Positions 6,941 to 41,866 of a stretch of DNA of 64,000 nucleotides are shown here, piece by piece. The stretch covers positions 126,160 to 190,159 of the forward strand of contig NZ_GG692710.1 in the NCBI RefSeq assembly GCF_000156175.1, written 5' to 3'. The translations under genes and the position numbers were made by a program. The stretch is from Collinsella intestinalis DSM 13280. GTDB lineage: Bacteria; Actinomycetota; Coriobacteriia; Coriobacteriales; Coriobacteriaceae. Below the pieces are notes generated by a model. That model saw nothing but the letters and a program-made list of their open reading frames with translations, made no database searches and was not told the origin of the DNA. Positions within the stretch are counted from its first letter, which is position 1, and each line of letters begins with the position of its first letter.

Positions 6941-7103
6941 CGGGTTCCCTTCCGTTTGCAACTGCCCGTGCCGTACATCTCGTAACGGTTTCGACATATT
7001 ACGACACTCCGACCCTGCCGCTATCCGAGGCGCGAAGCCATCTGCTAGCATGTCAACACTTTACTGAAAGAAAGCGCAGCACGAAAAGACGGAGGACGCG
7101 CAT

Positions 7104-7312
7104 ATGGCGACTGACGGCAACAGGGCAACGACGGCGCGGGCATCTCGTTCAAGGCCACGCCGGACGCCGTCAAGACGGGCGTCGTCGTGCGCATCCCCAA
7201 GCTTTTGCTCGCCGCGGCGATGGGCTTCGCCGTCGCTTGGTTCTTCAACGACGACCTCCTCGGCCTGTCGTCCGTCTCTATCATCGGCGGCATCTCGTTT
7301 TGCAACATCTCA
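7104..7312 (+). pseudogene. Remnant of a 2-keto-3-deoxygluconate permease-like gene
   Basis: A ribosome-binding site (GGAGGA) and an ATG at 7104 open a frame that soon shifts. In the second frame from about 7121 the translation reads NDGAGISFKATPDAVKTG, then VVVRIPKLLLAAAMGFAVAW and LLGLSSVSIIGGISFCN. This resembles the middle of KdgT-type permeases (GAGISxKxxPxALKKG, LFGLSxLAIIAAMTN). There is no room for the other eight or so membrane segments, and the frame breaks, so this is a decayed fragment. Family assignment rests on pattern memory and is moderate. Confidence 0.5.
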
Positions 7313-7313
7313 G

Positions 7314-7460
7314 CTAGAGGGCAGCGGCCTGTAGGATGGCGAACGCCGCGACTCCCGTCACGATGCACCAGACGGGCGACTTGGTTTTGATCCCGACTGC
7401 CGCAACGATGCCAACGGCGGGGCGAAGCTGGGTTCGAAGCTGCGAGTATTCGCCCTGCAT
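7314..7460 (-). pseudogene. C-terminal scrap of an unidentified membrane protein
   Basis: A 48-codon minus-strand frame ending RPAVGIVAAVGIKTKSPVWC followed by IVTGVAAFAILQAAAL and stop. It looks like the last two membrane helices of a transporter, perhaps AzlD-like, with the rest missing. It adjoins the permease remnant, tail to tail, in a 700-base gene-poor stretch. It could be a chance hydrophobic frame. Confidence 0.3.
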
Positions 7461-7649
7461 CCTCACCGCAACGGGCGGTGGCGGAATTGTCGCGATGTGT
7501 TGCTACAATTGTCGCTGCTAGATGGTGGAGCGCAACGGCGGTTGCGAGGATAGTCTTGCGCTGAGGCCCGATGGCCAAAGGGGGTGAAAGCATCCCATGA
7601 CGGCTGCCGTCGGGCCCCGGAATATCAGCGCTACAAGGAGGCTTTCATT

Positions 7650-8051
7650 ATGGATGACGCGACGACGCAGCTAGCCGATCGTCTGCTCGACCTTCGCCGC
7701 AAGGCCGGCTATTCGCAGGAGCAGCTGGCGGACCTGCTTGGGGTTTCCCGTCAGGCCATCTCGAAGTGGGAGGGTGCCCAGGGCCGCCCCGAAGTCGACA
7801 ACGTGGTCAAGCTCGCGCAGATCTACCGTGTGAGCACAGACTTCATCCTCACGGGCTCGGCGAGCGTCCCGTCGGTGTGCGAGACGCCCTCGGCGCCCGC
7901 CCCGCGCGAGCTGTCGCGTGAGTACCGCTTCGCCCTCAGTGCCCTCATGGTCATCGCGGGCACTGCGGTTGTGTTCCTGCTGATCGTCGTTATCCTGACC
8001 ATCCTGTCCACGATACTCACCTCGGGTGCCGACATCCCCGGCTGGAAGTAG
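7650..8051 (+). CDS. XRE-family regulator with C-terminal membrane helix
   Basis: A 133-residue protein. The N-terminal XRE helix-turn-helix (residues about 8-62) contains LRRKAGYSQEQLADLLGVSR and QAISKWEGAQGRPEVDNVVK. One membrane helix follows near residues 95-122 (FALSALMVIAGTAVVFLLIV). AAGGAGG lies eight bases before ATG 7650, which sets the start. It is followed 154 bases later by an ABC transporter of the FtsX/MacB type. The pattern of XRE regulator plus membrane segment next to a transporter recurs several times in this window. It probably controls the transporter (inference). Confidence 0.88.
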   Translation: MDDATTQLADRLLDLRRKAGYSQEQLADLLGVSRQAISKWEGAQGRPEVDNVVKLAQIYRVSTDFILTGSASVPSVCETPSAPAPRELSREYRFALSALMVIAGTAVVFLLIVVILTILSTILTSGADIPGWK

Positions 8052-8205
8052 CCGCTGGCCGAGGCCTCGTATTCACTATCAACTGATGAGACGCGTGCAA
8101 GGTAACTTGGCGCTTGTCCGATGCGCCCTTTCTTGCAGGGTGCAGGGCTCGTGCGCTTTGGCCTTGCATGCTCACGGGCGGATTGGCAAAAGGAGCAGAA
8201 GAATT

Positions 8206-8961
8206 ATGGGCATCCTCGTTGAGGCGTGTGGCGTATGCAAAAGTTATAAGCATGGAAATCTGAACACCGAGGTTCTTCGCCACGTTGATATGAATGTGTT
8301 GGCAGGTGAGATGGTATCCATCGTGGGACCATCCGGTTCGGGCAAGTCGACGCTGCTGCACTGTCTGGCGGGGCTTGAGGTCCCCGATGCGGGCGAGATT
8401 CATCTTATGGGCGTGGATGTCGTGCGAGCGAGGCGCGGCGAGCGCGCGAAGGTCAGGGCTCGACATGTCGGGTTCGTGTTCCAGCAGTACAATCTCATGC
8501 CCTCGCTCTCCGTGGGTGAGAACGTCTCACTGCCCGCGCGCTTTGCCGGTCGCAGGGTGAGCGGGAAGGATGTGTGCGATCTCTTGGAGAGGGTCGGTAT
8601 GGGAGGGAAGGAGCATGCCCGTCCAGCCGAGTTGTCCGGCGGCGAGGCGCAGCGCGTGGCGCTCGCCCGGGCTATCGCTTCCTGTCCGGACATCGTGTTC
8701 GCCGATGAACCCACCGGCGCCCTCGACACGGCGAACGGGAACGCGGTCCTCGACATACTGCGAGCCATGGCGGATGGGGAGAGCCGGGCCGTCGTCATGG
8801 TGACGCACGATCTTGAGGCGGCCGCTCGTGCCGATCGGGTGTTTGTAATGCGTGACGGGAAGATCGTCCACATGATGACTCGTCCTGCGTCGCGGGAAAT
8901 CCTCACCGCGATGGAGGCGGTTGGGGAGCGCGATACCGATGAGGGGGCGATGTTGCGATGA
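8206..8961 (+). CDS. ABC transporter ATP-binding protein, MacB/LolD type
   Basis: A 251-residue ATPase: Walker A GPSGSGKST (about residues 42-50), Q-loop FVFQQYNLMPSLSVGENV, signature LSGGEAQRVALARAIA, Walker B DIVFADEPTGALD, H-loop VTHD. These signatures place it with the LolD/MacB/BceA subfamily that pairs with FtsX-type permeases. The start at 8206 follows AGGAGCAGAAG. Its stop overlaps the permease start by four bases (ATGA), so the two are coupled. The subfamily couples ATP hydrolysis to a mechanical movement of the permease, often for antimicrobial-peptide resistance or lipoprotein release; the specific role here is unknown. Confidence 0.93.
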   Translation: MGILVEACGVCKSYKHGNLNTEVLRHVDMNVLAGEMVSIVGPSGSGKSTLLHCLAGLEVPDAGEIHLMGVDVVRARRGERAKVRARHVGFVFQQYNLMPSLSVGENVSLPARFAGRRVSGKDVCDLLERVGMGGKEHARPAELSGGEAQRVALARAIASCPDIVFADEPTGALDTANGNAVLDILRAMADGESRAVVMVTHDLEAAARADRVFVMRDGKIVHMMTRPASREILTAMEAVGERDTDEGAMLR

Positions 8962-10325
8962 TCCGTCTGCTTGTGGGTGATGTTCGGGAGCATTGGCATG
9001 TGTGGTTCGGTGTGCTCGCCGTTGCTACCGCATTTGGCTATATGGGAGGTTGGTTCGCATCGTTTTCCGCAACGGCGGCCGCGGACCCGATGGTCTCGAC
9101 TTCTTTCTTCTTTAGAAGCGCCGCCCAGGCGATTCTCATGTTCTCGGCGATTGCCGGATGCGTCGTTCTCTCCTCAACGGCTCGGGGAAGCGTCGTCTCG
9201 TTGCGGCGAACCTACGCCCTGTGGCAGGTGATCAACATTCCTCCGGTTGTGGTGGGCTTTGCCGTCATCGTTCAAATTGCACTCGTGGGGGTCTTCGGTT
9301 TGTGCTTGGGCTTGGCCTTGTGCTGGGCAAGCTCATCCACCGTGTTCAGCGCTCTGTTCATGGATATCGACTTGTTCGAAGGGGTGCGGCTTCTGCCGGG
9401 ATTTTCCCTCTGCCCTGCGGTTCTGGGTGTGTCGCTATTCGTGTCGGTACTCGGCGGGACGCGCGCCGCAAGGGCGGCGGCGTGTACGCCGCCCGTGATG
9501 GCTTTGCGTGACGAGTGGTCGGTCGAGGGCGCATCCGAGCGCATGATGCCGCTGCGCTGGCTTGCCGCCCTTGCCGCATGCGCCGCTGCCGCATGGTGTG
9601 TGTCCACGGTTGACCCCGTCTTAGCCCCTGTCGATTTCGGTCAGAGCACCTGGCTCGTCTTTTTGCCTATTGCAATCCCGGCGCTAATTACGGCTCTCGC
9701 CCCTGTACTTTTGCCGAGGATCCTGCGAGCGGCGACGTGTCCGTTGTCGCGCTGGACGGCGTGGCTTCTCGCGCGCGGGAGCGCTCAGCACGGCTTGACA
9801 CAGAGCTTGTCGATTGAGACATCCCTCGTGGTTGCCATGGGTGTCGTTGCGGGTTTCTATTCGATGATGAGCCTGATGGAGCAGTATGCCACGGCATACG
9901 ACTTGCCGATTGGGAGCGGATTCGGTTTCGACCCGCGCCTCGCGTGCGTAATGTTCGCGGGGCCGGTTATCTTGGCGGCTGTGGGGTCGTGCGCAAACGT
10001 GGCTCTCGCCCTGCGTGTGCGGGAGCGTGACGCATCGTTGCTGGAGGTGCTGGGCGCCACCCCACGCCAAGTCTGTGTCGTCTCGGTTCTCGAGGCGTAT
10101 ATGCATGTGGTGACAGCAGGCTCAGCTGCATTACTTGCGGTTGTGCTTTCCAACATGATCGCGGCCCATGCGTTGGGCTTGGGTGCTGGGAGCGCGATGC
10201 TGTCCGTGCGTTTTGTCCCTGCCGTCCTCATCGCCGTCGCAGGTTTCGTCGTGCTGGTCGTAGCAGGGCTGATGCCGGTGCTGCGCATGATCAGGACCGC
10301 ACCGGTGCGGTTTCTCAATGAGTGA
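8958..10325 (+). CDS. FtsX-type ABC transporter permease
   Basis: A 455-residue membrane protein with about eight hydrophobic segments, including WFGVLAVATAFGYMGGWFA near the N-terminus and two FtsX-like bundles (VGFAVIVQIALVGVFGLCLG; VILAAVGSCANVALALRVRE; VLIAVAGFVVLVVAGLMPVL). The motif LRVRERDASLLEVLGATPRQ is the typical FtsX cytoplasmic loop. It overlaps the ATPase gene by four bases. No large periplasmic domain is evident, so it looks more like a Bce-type or simple FtsX permease than MacB itself. It forms the exporter or sensor-transporter with the protein from 8206-8961. Confidence 0.88.
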   Translation: MIRLLVGDVREHWHVWFGVLAVATAFGYMGGWFASFSATAAADPMVSTSFFFRSAAQAILMFSAIAGCVVLSSTARGSVVSLRRTYALWQVINIPPVVVGFAVIVQIALVGVFGLCLGLALCWASSSTVFSALFMDIDLFEGVRLLPGFSLCPAVLGVSLFVSVLGGTRAARAAACTPPVMALRDEWSVEGASERMMPLRWLAALAACAAAAWCVSTVDPVLAPVDFGQSTWLVFLPIAIPALITALAPVLLPRILRAATCPLSRWTAWLLARGSAQHGLTQSLSIETSLVVAMGVVAGFYSMMSLMEQYATAYDLPIGSGFGFDPRLACVMFAGPVILAAVGSCANVALALRVRERDASLLEVLGATPRQVCVVSVLEAYMHVVTAGSAALLAVVLSNMIAAHALGLGAGSAMLSVRFVPAVLIAVAGFVVLVVAGLMPVLRMIRTAPVRFLNE

Positions 10326-37362: not shown

Positions 37363-37636
37363 GCGAGTTCCTTTCACGACTGCGCCGGCGTTTGCGTGAC
37401 GGCCCCGGCGCCGCCTCCAGATTGCGATGGGGAGGAGGCGAATCCCCGAGCAGTCCGTGCGGCTGCTGATTGCATTGTGATATCACATTGAGACCAAGTC
37501 AAGAAGAATCGGTGCCTGCGCGCGCACTTCTGTGCTCCGCCGCGGCCGCTCTGTTGCATCTTTGCCGGCAAGTCCCTAGAATAGCTCCTACTCACGACTG
37601 AAGGTGCACCTGGATTTAGGAAAGGGGAGCTGTATC
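37363..37636. other. Divergent intergenic region, SPFH gene / efflux pump
   Basis: No gene. It contains the 12-bp palindrome TGTGATATCACA at 37476-37487, possibly an operator for the leftward SPFH gene; its GTGATATCA core also occurs in the 26-bp palindrome at 3885-3910. The rightward promoter for the pump transcript probably lies near 37570-37600 (TAGAAT at 37578-37583). Confidence 0.45.
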
Positions 37637-37666
37637 ATGCTCGCTTCCATGAGGATTTGGCTCTAG
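37637..37666 (+). CDS. Nine-residue leader peptide (MLASMRIWL) of the efflux gene
   Basis: ATG 37637 is preceded by a strong AAAGGGGAG (37621-37629) with ideal spacing, and the frame ends at TAG 37666, 63 bases before the pump start. The sequence MLASMRIWL resembles MTASMRLR, the leader described for the mef macrolide efflux gene, and the downstream protein is a Mef relative. That suggests drug-dependent ribosome stalling controls the pump. Very short, so similarity could be chance. Confidence 0.6.
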   Translation: MLASMRIWL

Positions 37667-37669
37667 CCA

Positions 37670-37687
37670 CGGTCGCGTGAGCGACCG
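37670..37687 (+). promoter_or_regulatory. Leader hairpin between leader peptide and efflux gene
   Basis: CGGTCGC and GCGACCG with GTGA tetraloop (GNRA class), starting four bases after the leader-peptide stop. Such a stem could be held open or closed by a stalled ribosome. No U-run follows directly, so translational rather than transcriptional attenuation is more likely. Confidence 0.5.
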
Positions 37688-37729
37688 GTACTTCGCTGCA
37701 TATCACCGATCGCAACAAAGGATTATTCC

Positions 37730-38980
37730 ATGACACAACCGAATCCCCGCGCTTCCTGGAAGCGCTCGCTCGCCATCGTCTGGATCGGCGAGTTCTTCTC
37801 CGTGCTCACGAGCTCCATCTTGCAGATGGGCCTCATCTGGCACGTCACCCTCACCACCGGCTCCGCGAGCGCCCTGTCGTTCGTGAGCCTGGCGGCCTTC
37901 TTGCCCATGGCGCTCCTCGGCGCCTTCGCGGGCACCATCGTGGACCGCACGTCCATCAAGCGGCTCATGATCGGCGCGGACCTCTTCATAGCCGCCGTGA
38001 GTCTCACGCTCGTCTTCGGATCGCTACGCGGCGATCTCTCCGTCACTGCCGTGGCGGCGGTGCTGTTCGTTCGCGCCCTAGGTAGCACGCTCCACACGCC
38101 TGCGTTCAACGCGCTCACGCCGCTTATGGCCCCGCCCGAGGCGCTCGGAAAGCTGGCGGGCATGCTCCAGTTCATGCAGTCGGGCAGCTACATCATCGGC
38201 AACGCAATCGCGGCAGTCATCTATCCGGCGTTCGGCCTGACCTTCATGATCGCGCTCGATGTCGCCGGCGCGGTGCTCGCGAGCATCGCGGTCGCGGTCT
38301 CCGGTATAAAGACGCCAGTGCCCGAGCGCCATGCACTCGAGGAGAACGCCGAGGCGTCGCGCCGTGCGGTGCGGGCGTTCCTCTCGGAGACGGCCGACGG
38401 TTACCGCGAGCTCAAGCGCCATCGCGGGCTGTTCGCCATGCTCTGGATCGGATTTGCGTTCTCCGTGCTGTTCTCGCCTATCTCCGCGCTGTTCCCGCTC
38501 ATGGTGTTCGACCATTTCGGCGGCACCACCACGCAGTCGGCTATCGCCGAGATCGCGTTCTCGGTCGGAATGATCGCGGCGAGCGGCTGGATTGGGGTGA
38601 CGGGCGGCCTCAGGAACCACGCGCTCTCGTGCGCGCTCGCAATCGCGCTCTTCGGCGCGGCCACGCTCGCGAGCGGTCTCGTGCCGCCCTCGGCCCTCGT
38701 CGTGTTTTTGGGCCTCACGTTCGCGATGGGGCTGTCGAGTCCGCTGTACAGCGCCCCGCAGATGGCGCTCATGCAGGAGCGCATCGATCCCGAGTGCATG
38801 GGGCGCGTCTTCGGCCTTTACGGGGCGGTTTGCAGCTGGGCCATGCCCGTGGGGCTCGTCGCGTCGACCCTGTTCGCCGACGCCATCGGCGTGAGCGCGT
38901 GCTTCGTGCTCATCGGCGCTGCGATGGTGATCCTTGCGGGTATCACCTGGACGATACCGAGCATCAGGAAGATCGGGTAG
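37730..38980 (+). CDS. Mef-like MFS efflux transporter
   Basis: A 416-residue protein with twelve predicted membrane helices. It shares characteristic stretches with macrolide efflux Mef proteins: WIGEFFSVLTSSILQMGLIW, GAFAGTIVDRTSIKRLMIGA, FVRALGSTLHTPAFNALTPL, ISALFPLMVFDHFGGT, GRVFGLYGAVCSWAMPVGLV. AAAGGA precedes the ATG. Likely substrate is a drug exported by proton antiport; macrolides are suggested by family and by the leader peptide upstream, but many homologues in gut Actinobacteria are untested. Monocistronic. Confidence 0.88.
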   Translation: MTQPNPRASWKRSLAIVWIGEFFSVLTSSILQMGLIWHVTLTTGSASALSFVSLAAFLPMALLGAFAGTIVDRTSIKRLMIGADLFIAAVSLTLVFGSLRGDLSVTAVAAVLFVRALGSTLHTPAFNALTPLMAPPEALGKLAGMLQFMQSGSYIIGNAIAAVIYPAFGLTFMIALDVAGAVLASIAVAVSGIKTPVPERHALEENAEASRRAVRAFLSETADGYRELKRHRGLFAMLWIGFAFSVLFSPISALFPLMVFDHFGGTTTQSAIAEIAFSVGMIAASGWIGVTGGLRNHALSCALAIALFGAATLASGLVPPSALVVFLGLTFAMGLSSPLYSAPQMALMQERIDPECMGRVFGLYGAVCSWAMPVGLVASTLFADAIGVSACFVLIGAAMVILAGITWTIPSIRKIG

Positions 38981-39229: not shown

Positions 39230-40336
39230 ATGGTGGTTAATATGGGCGACATGCTCGAATCGTTCCTGCGCGTGGCGATGGTGGTCTTCATCGTCGGTCC
39301 GCTCACTGCATGGGTCGCCCGTCGCGGTGCGCGCGAGCGCAGTGAGGCGACGGACAGCCTCGATCGCTTCACGGTGCGCATGCCCGCTGCCATCCGCACG
39401 ATCATCGCCTGCTGCGCGGTCGCGTTCGAGCTGCTCATGTTGGGTGTTTACGTCTGGCAGGGCGTTTCGCTGGGCGAGTGGGACCACGAGCTTGTGTGGT
39501 TCGGCCACGCCATGGCACTTGCGGGCATGGCCATCTGGGCCCTGCTGAGCATCCCGCGCATCGACGTGGACGGTGAGCGAATTCTCTCGCGTAACGCCTT
39601 TGGCGTCCGCAGGGAGTCGACGTTCGGCAACATCGCCCGTGCAACGCTTCACACGCAGATGATGAGGATCGACCTGTTCGAGGGCGATCGAAAGTTCTGC
39701 TCGATAAGCCTTGAGGGGGTGTGCTCGCTCAATCTCCTCGCCCGTCTGGAGGAAGAGGGCATCGAGATCTCGGACGCTGTCGACGGCCCCATGACCAAGG
39801 CGGGCCTGTGTTGGTCTGCCATCAAGCCGTTGACGATTGTTTTCAACGGCATGGCACTCGTCTTCTCGCTCGTGATCGCCTTCATGGCTGTTTTCACCGA
39901 TGCCGGAGCCCGCTTGCTCTTGCTCGTCCCGTTCCTCTTCCTGTTCATAGGGGGACTCCTGCCCCTGCTCATGCTCAGCATGCCCGCTCGTGGTATCTAC
40001 GAGATCGGCAGGCAGGAACGCGAACTCGGTTTCTCCTTTGCCGAGGAGATGACAAGCCGGGGTGCCACGGGCACTTCGCTCGTTGACGACGATTGGTTCA
40101 TCGAGATCAGCAACGCCCGCGTCGTGGCGTTCCGCCGCGATTACCTCAAGAAGGTCACGGCGCACGAGGACAGCGAGAGCGGCGACCGCTGCACGGTGAC
40201 TACGAAGGGCGGTCGCAAAATCAAGGTGTATGCAACGGGCAGCACCCTCGAGGACCTGCGCTTGTGGTTCAAACAGGGCGCCAAGGTCAGAAGCACGGTC
40301 GACCGTGCAGAGGATGCGCTCGAGGCGACCGTCTGA
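39230..40336 (+). CDS. Hypothetical membrane protein
   Basis: A 368-residue protein with two pairs of membrane helices (SFLRVAMVVFIVGPLTAWVA; IIACCAVAFELLMLGVYVWQ; ALAGMAIWALLSIP; FNGMALVFSLVIAFMAVFTD; LLLVPFLFLFIGGLLPLLML) separated by soluble beta-rich parts (IDVDGERILSRNAFGVRRES; WFIEISNARVVAFRRDYLKK; GDRCTVTTKGGRKIKVYATG). The soluble parts look PH-like, as in bacterial bPH/DUF-type membrane proteins; this is weak. ATG 39230 or 39242; neither has a strong ribosome-binding site. Confidence 0.7.
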   Translation: MVVNMGDMLESFLRVAMVVFIVGPLTAWVARRGARERSEATDSLDRFTVRMPAAIRTIIACCAVAFELLMLGVYVWQGVSLGEWDHELVWFGHAMALAGMAIWALLSIPRIDVDGERILSRNAFGVRRESTFGNIARATLHTQMMRIDLFEGDRKFCSISLEGVCSLNLLARLEEEGIEISDAVDGPMTKAGLCWSAIKPLTIVFNGMALVFSLVIAFMAVFTDAGARLLLLVPFLFLFIGGLLPLLMLSMPARGIYEIGRQERELGFSFAEEMTSRGATGTSLVDDDWFIEISNARVVAFRRDYLKKVTAHEDSESGDRCTVTTKGGRKIKVYATGSTLEDLRLWFKQGAKVRSTVDRAEDALEATV

Positions 40337-41836: not shown

Positions 41837-41866
41837 ACGAGGCGGGCTTATTATCACCCACCTCGT
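41837..41866 (-). terminator. Rho-independent terminator of trpS
   Basis: ACGAGGCGGG at 41837-41846 and CCCACCTCGT at 41857-41866 (10-bp stem, one mismatch), followed on the minus strand by TTTTTTACG. It lies 80 bases past the trpS stop. Confidence 0.85.

Follow-up and report, generated by a model that had tools for sequence, protein, structure and literature searches.

The window, which is the whole stretch of 64,000 nucleotides of Collinsella intestinalis DSM 13280 analysed here, carries a gene for a Mef-like MFS efflux pump preceded by a short open reading frame encoding MLASMRIWL (Table 1). Direct reading bears out an earlier note on this DNA, which had described a nine-codon frame with a strong Shine–Dalgarno (SD) sequence, separated from the pump ATG by 63 bases (37667-37729), and a GNRA-capped hairpin (hairpin B) whose first base is the fourth after the leader stop. 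Further upstream, a putative sigma-70 promoter can be assigned, the start site probably lying near a conserved ACTCACG downstream of it. The -10 position is kept in aligned relatives, reading TATAAT, TACAAT or TAGTAT; a generic promoter scan scores the candidate below threshold.

Table 1. Features of the leader and pump locus, in window coordinates.
Feature	Position	Strand	Description and basis
Putative sigma-70 promoter	37554..37582	+	-35 TTGCAT (37554-37559), 17-nt spacer, -10 TAGAAT (37577-37582)
Leader SD region, GGAAAGGGGAG	37619..37629	+	Strong SD; direct reading
Leader ORF, MLASMRIWL*	37637..37666	+	Nine codons, ATG CTC GCT TCC ATG AGG ATT TGG CTC TAG; sequence reading and conservation
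Predicted stall site	37655-37657 and 37658-37660		Ile7 in P site and Trp8 in A site; stalling logic of PMC8298421 and PMC6238534
Predicted hairpin A	37658..37669	+	TGGC-TCTA-GCCA; leader codons 8, 9, stop and CCA; predicted -3.7 kcal/mol
Hairpin B	37670..37687	+	CGGTCGC-GTGA-GCGACCG; 7 bp, GNRA loop GTGA; predicted -12.8 kcal/mol
Conserved element ACCGATCGC	37705..37713	+	Can pair with the 3' arm of hairpin B, 8/9
Pump SD, AAAGGA	37717..37722	+	No extended structure predicted to sequester it
Mef-like MFS efflux pump	37730..38980	+	416 aa ORF; best NCBIfam profile Mef(A)

The assignment of the pump to the Mef family holds in part. Mef(A) is the best NCBIfam profile (NF000245; 327 bits, E 1.8e-97), but the score stays below the curated cut-off of 675 bits and the protein is 42-43% identical to plasmid Mef(A). 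The pump is present as a single copy in the genome. Searches found no relative in viral contigs, and relatives on plasmids were limited to Mef(A) at about 42% identity and one more distant MFS protein. There is no adjacent Msr-type ABC-F gene; the next ORF on the + strand (39230-40336) is not an ABC-F by its translation. Genes of the ABC-F type lie elsewhere in the genome, and one passes the cut-off of a general ribosomal-protection model, a threshold that is reached in 8 of 14 control genomes as well. Around A2058 the 23S sequence is unmutated, with GACGGAAAGACCCC occurring at three places in the genome, so macrolides should bind the ribosomes of this organism.

Leaders of a similar kind are well described. 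The published class comprises MTASMRLR (mef), MTASMRLK (msrA) and MTHSMRLR (ermD), and macrolide induction requires Mef(E)L (PMC4335068). The earlier note had likened the window peptide to MTASMRLR, which is indeed the published Mef(E) leader: Ser4, Met5 and Arg6 are kept, but the Arg-X-Arg pattern is not. With Mef(E)L/Mef(A)L of the streptococcal mef-mel(msrD) elements (PMC4335068, PMC10314930) the window leader shares an SD-led frame, a Mef-type pump, Ala3-Ser4-Met5-Arg6 and a hairpin. It differs in having Leu2 for Thr2 and Ile7-Trp8-Leu9 for Leu7-Arg8, which leaves it without a +X+ motif, and in lying 63 nt rather than about 270 nt from the pump, in a chromosomal Collinsella locus that lacks both a U-tract terminator and an msrD partner. 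In all six orthologous leaders Ser4-Met5-Arg6 of the MTxSMRLR class is identical, and as in that class a short SD-led ORF stands directly before a gene of macrolide-resistance type; the +X+ motif Arg6-X-Arg/Lys8 is absent from all six, which read Arg6-Ile7-Trp8, that is, +X(W).

The consequences of this replacement can be gauged from ErmDL. For stalling with erythromycin, its Ser4 can be replaced only by Ala or Gly and Met5 is critical, whereas Arg6 and Arg8 accept almost any residue; stalling with telithromycin needs both Arg residues and is relieved by an Arg8-to-Trp change (PMC8298421). In inverse toeprinting, +X(W) is one of the motifs at which arrest depends on erythromycin (PMC6238534). 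The ErmDL and ErmK leaders (MTHSMRLR; PMC8298421, PMC4335068) share Ser4, Met5 and Arg6 with the window leader, and in both cases the stall is expected when codon 7 occupies the P site, but they control an rRNA methylase and have Arg8 in place of Trp8; ErmDL also stalls with telithromycin, which is predicted not to occur with Trp8. MsrDL (MYLIFM; PMC10314930), the leader in a mef-msr operon, is likewise specific for macrolides and coupled to an attenuator, yet its peptide is different, it stalls at the stop codon and it uses an intrinsic terminator. Because MLASMRIW keeps the residues needed with erythromycin and lacks those needed with telithromycin, a response to erythromycin and none to ketolides is predicted. 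The earlier note had expected the stall at the Arg codon; RIW, being a +X(W) motif, instead points to Ile7 as the P-site and Trp8 as the A-site residue.

How readily such features arise by chance was assessed within the window and beyond it. The window has 60 ATG-started ORFs of 6-20 codons that follow an SD, and this leader alone among them has SM[RK] at residues 4-6. The motif +X(+/W) occurs in 8 of the 60 and, being so common, is by itself weak evidence for a stalling leader. Strings with SMR can also be fortuitous. A wider search for SMR leaders in 298 genomes of the class gave matches nearly all of which were chance-like and inside genes, and the best-looking, MTHSMRIR, was rejected as a further leader since it is the start of the ribosomal protein L24 gene in another genome. 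In viral contigs the SMR-leader pattern had seven matches, none with an SD context, while the positive control, MTASMRLR upstream of plasmid mef(A), was recovered. No Rfam family matches the leader region. Literature searches, which covered few subscription papers, returned no paper joining Collinsella, erythromycin and a leader peptide, and only general papers on mef/msr in Coriobacteria.

Conservation across relatives rules out a chance ORF. Of 67 genomes of the family, 6 contain a single match to MxASMRIW, always 93-101 nt before the orthologous pump, and the reversed control pattern has no match in the 67. In a collection of about 85,000 species MxASMRIW is found only in five Collinsella records and at one unrelated place in Bacteriovorax. 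A search of the genus gave pump orthologues at 93-94% identity (four genomes), 80% (L006) and 73% (L007, Collinsella tanakaei), as well as paralogous pumps at 58-61% and 52%. The leader peptide is identical in the window, the four close orthologues and L007, and the SD region GGAAAGGGGAG has 0-1 changes across the six leader-bearing relatives. A comparison of leaders before homologous pumps, as the earlier note had proposed, thus shows conservation in six genomes, always before this pump clade, where its lack would have refuted the note's reading; the conservation is confined to that clade, and at the loci examined in the genus, family and order no such leader precedes paralogues at about 58-62% identity.

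The degree of conservation is striking at the nucleotide level. Over the 51 nt from the leader start to the end of the hairpin, the window and L007 differ at one base (Leu2, CTC/CTT), whereas only 46% of the 182 fourfold sites of their pump genes are identical; so few differences at the fourfold rate have P = 4.5e-16. In all comparisons with L007 the block shows 0-1 differences against 46-52% identity at fourfold sites, with P of roughly 1e-15 to 1e-17 and in any case below about 1e-14. Since the sequence upstream of the block has diverged in L005 and L007, as has the linker after the hairpin in L007, the identity is not simply due to a long segment having been copied recently; local conversion over a short tract is a possible source. 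Within the block, silent leader positions vary no more than the other sites. With six leaders, one peptide and one silent change, selection on the peptide is inseparable from selection on the RNA.

The history of the block is illuminated by the sister pump locus L006, which has a deletion-like variant and is the seventh genome beside the six leader-bearing ones. Its region 1370-1500 retains the hairpin B stem and the first part of the leader, and the SMRIW segment is missing. It reads ...ATGCTCGCTT-TCTA-ACGGTCGCTCAGCGACCGCCTGTTTTTG and contains a GTG-started frame, MPIPMLAF, preceded by a weaker SD; the stem is followed by a U-run, CCTGTTTTTG, likely forming an intrinsic terminator. Because L007 splits off before L006 and the five others in the pump tree, the leader was most simply ancestral in the clade and altered in L006.

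Other pump loci showed further peculiarities. Collinsella provencensis (L018) has a partial pump copy (G018:C3:1701578-1702435), 92% identical over residues 131-416 and about 1.2 kb upstream of the full-length pump, with an N base nearby; this could be a tandem duplication or an assembly problem. Just upstream of several paralogous pumps (L036, L040 and L044) lie inverted repeats, AAAGGTTGGGTACTTTTT ... AAAAAGTACCCAACCTTT, which resemble a small mobile repeat.

A second group of pumps, 51-53% identical to the window pump and near-identical among themselves, spans three families and at least 12 genomes (L060-L070, L015-L017 and L019). Its members have an invariant GTG-started leader, MVGLFRTWMSA, behind AAAGGAGG, followed by a hairpin with a U-run. 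In L062, the only operon checked, the pump (8731-10041, - strand) is followed by an ABC-F of the Msr family (6973-8442, - strand) that scores 679.3 bits against the family profile, whose cut-off is 680. From its sequence and distribution, this mef-msr group looks like a mobile resistance operon of many Coriobacteriia genera. It forms a separate clade in the pump tree, with leaderless pumps between it and the window clade. The two systems have in common the host class, a Mef-like pump, a hairpin after the leader and the +X(W) combination Arg6-x-Trp8. In contrast to the window, the mef-msr leader has a GTG start and unrelated residues 2-5, its terminator has a canonical U-run, an Msr-family ABC-F follows, and the operon is spread over many genera. 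It is conceivable, if doubtful, that Mef-type pumps of Coriobacteriia twice gained Arg6-x-Trp8 leaders, native +X(W) leaders responsive to cladinose macrolides and blind to ketolides, and that in the window clade the leader works by way of a hairpin that is neither a U-tract terminator nor SD-sequestering.

How a stalled ribosome would affect the pump is less clear from the RNA. Hairpin A is invariant in relatives, with no covariation available, and directly abuts hairpin B, which is also invariant and predicted with high probability in all six leader-bearing sequences. Hairpin B is presumed to be an attenuator, mainly because the same stem with a U-run probably serves as a terminator in the sister locus L006. 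In the window it is followed by GTACTTCGCTGC instead of a U-tract, and a terminator scan misses it. Hairpin B is accordingly not an intrinsic terminator; a U-tract is present in L006 and in the mef-msr clade. Translational attenuation of the ermC type is not supported by folding, which predicts neither sequestration of the pump SD nor a switch: part of the SD forms only a local 3-bp pairing, whether or not a ribosome occupies codon 7. The element ACCGATCGC is kept in L002-L005 and L007 though the linker before it has diverged, and its pairing with the 3' arm of hairpin B is predicted at -8.3 kcal/mol, against -12.8 for hairpin B. A stable 2:3 switch is likewise not supported, with P(2:3) predicted at 0-0.01 in the free state and up to 0.16 in a stalled-ribosome simulation. 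The whole 5' region folds no better than shuffles (z = -0.93). Of the role in a drug switch that the earlier note had given the hairpin, its presence and invariance stand; a U-tract or predicted SD sequestration that would support such a switch does not.

The window count of U-tract terminator-like sites is not clearly above that of shuffles, so the scan cannot tell which terminators the genome uses. Strong terminator-like hairpins with T-runs lie at 2625-2657 and 41837-41866 (15 and 11 pairs), and are perhaps canonical terminators of this genome.

Collectively, MLASMRIWL is probably a drug-sensing leader that raises expression of the Mef-like pump through macrolide stalling. From published work on other leaders we infer that macrolides may stall ribosomes on it. 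By the same comparison we favour sensing of cladinose macrolides, with P-site Ile7 and A-site Trp8, such that the pump would be erythromycin-inducible and ketolide-blind. Transcription from the promoter around 37554-37582 would yield a short 5' UTR with the nine-codon leader. With a cladinose-bearing macrolide in the exit tunnel, the nascent M-L-A-S-M-R-I would be held by Ser4-Met5-Arg6, and Ile7 in the P site would fail to form a bond with Trp8 in the A site. In toeprints, the leading edge of a ribosome lies at +15 to +16; with Ile7 in the P site it gets no further than the first pair of hairpin B. The parked ribosome would therefore open hairpin A and sit at the foot of hairpin B, crowding rather than melting it. 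There it would counter a loss of transcripts at hairpin B, through weak or Rho-assisted termination or decay, and pump expression would rise. Such premature loss is proposed only loosely, by analogy with L006, the mef-msr clade and the streptococcal system. Counting against the drug-sensing reading are the folding predictions, which offer no U-tract terminator, stable 2:3 switch or SD sequestration, and, on the side of the sequence comparisons, the 42-43% identity of the pump to Mef(A), the lack of an adjacent msr gene and the absence of SMRIW from L006.

The main competing explanation is that conservation of the block reflects an RNA element, comprising hairpins A and B and ACCGATCGC, for mRNA stability, processing or protein binding, and that the peptide, though translated, senses no drug. 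The invariance of silent leader positions and of both hairpins, the prediction of hairpin B in all six sequences and the retention of the downstream element beside a changed linker fit this explanation. However, a hairpin alone would need neither the well-placed SD and ATG with which the block opens nor residues 4-6 that coincide with the erythromycin-critical region of ErmDL, and the independent mef-msr clade also has a leader ORF before a hairpin; we consider a purely RNA-based role unlikely.

Two further possibilities retain the ORF without a macrolide switch. The leader could respond to general translation trouble, such as another drug class, shortage of Trp or Arg, or slow initiation. It contains one Trp codon, its Arg codon is AGG, a macrolide substrate of the pump is only putative, and uORFs are reported that sense several ribosome-targeting drug classes (PMC12121999). 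Yet the gene encodes a Mef-type pump and the peptide agrees with the macrolide leader class at residues 4-6, which makes such unspecific sensing rather improbable. The ORF could also be a simple translation enhancer or spacer that keeps the 5' UTR open or permits reinitiation at the pump, as folding predicts no clear off-state structure and a general boosting effect has been proposed for reinitiation at leader genes (PMC4833913). Against this, 63 nt with a stable hairpin separate the leader stop from the pump start, and a spacer would not need near-absolute sequence conservation; this is the explanation to which we give the least credence, and a very slight one.

If MLASMRIWL is indeed a macrolide-sensing leader, the findings would point to a mobile Coriobacteriia mef-msr operon with a leader of its own. 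Natural leaders with +X(W) rather than +X+ would separate the mechanisms of stalling with erythromycin and telithromycin. Further, macrolide-type efflux inducible through a stalling leader would be native to the chromosomes of gut Collinsella, beyond the mobile elements of Firmicutes.
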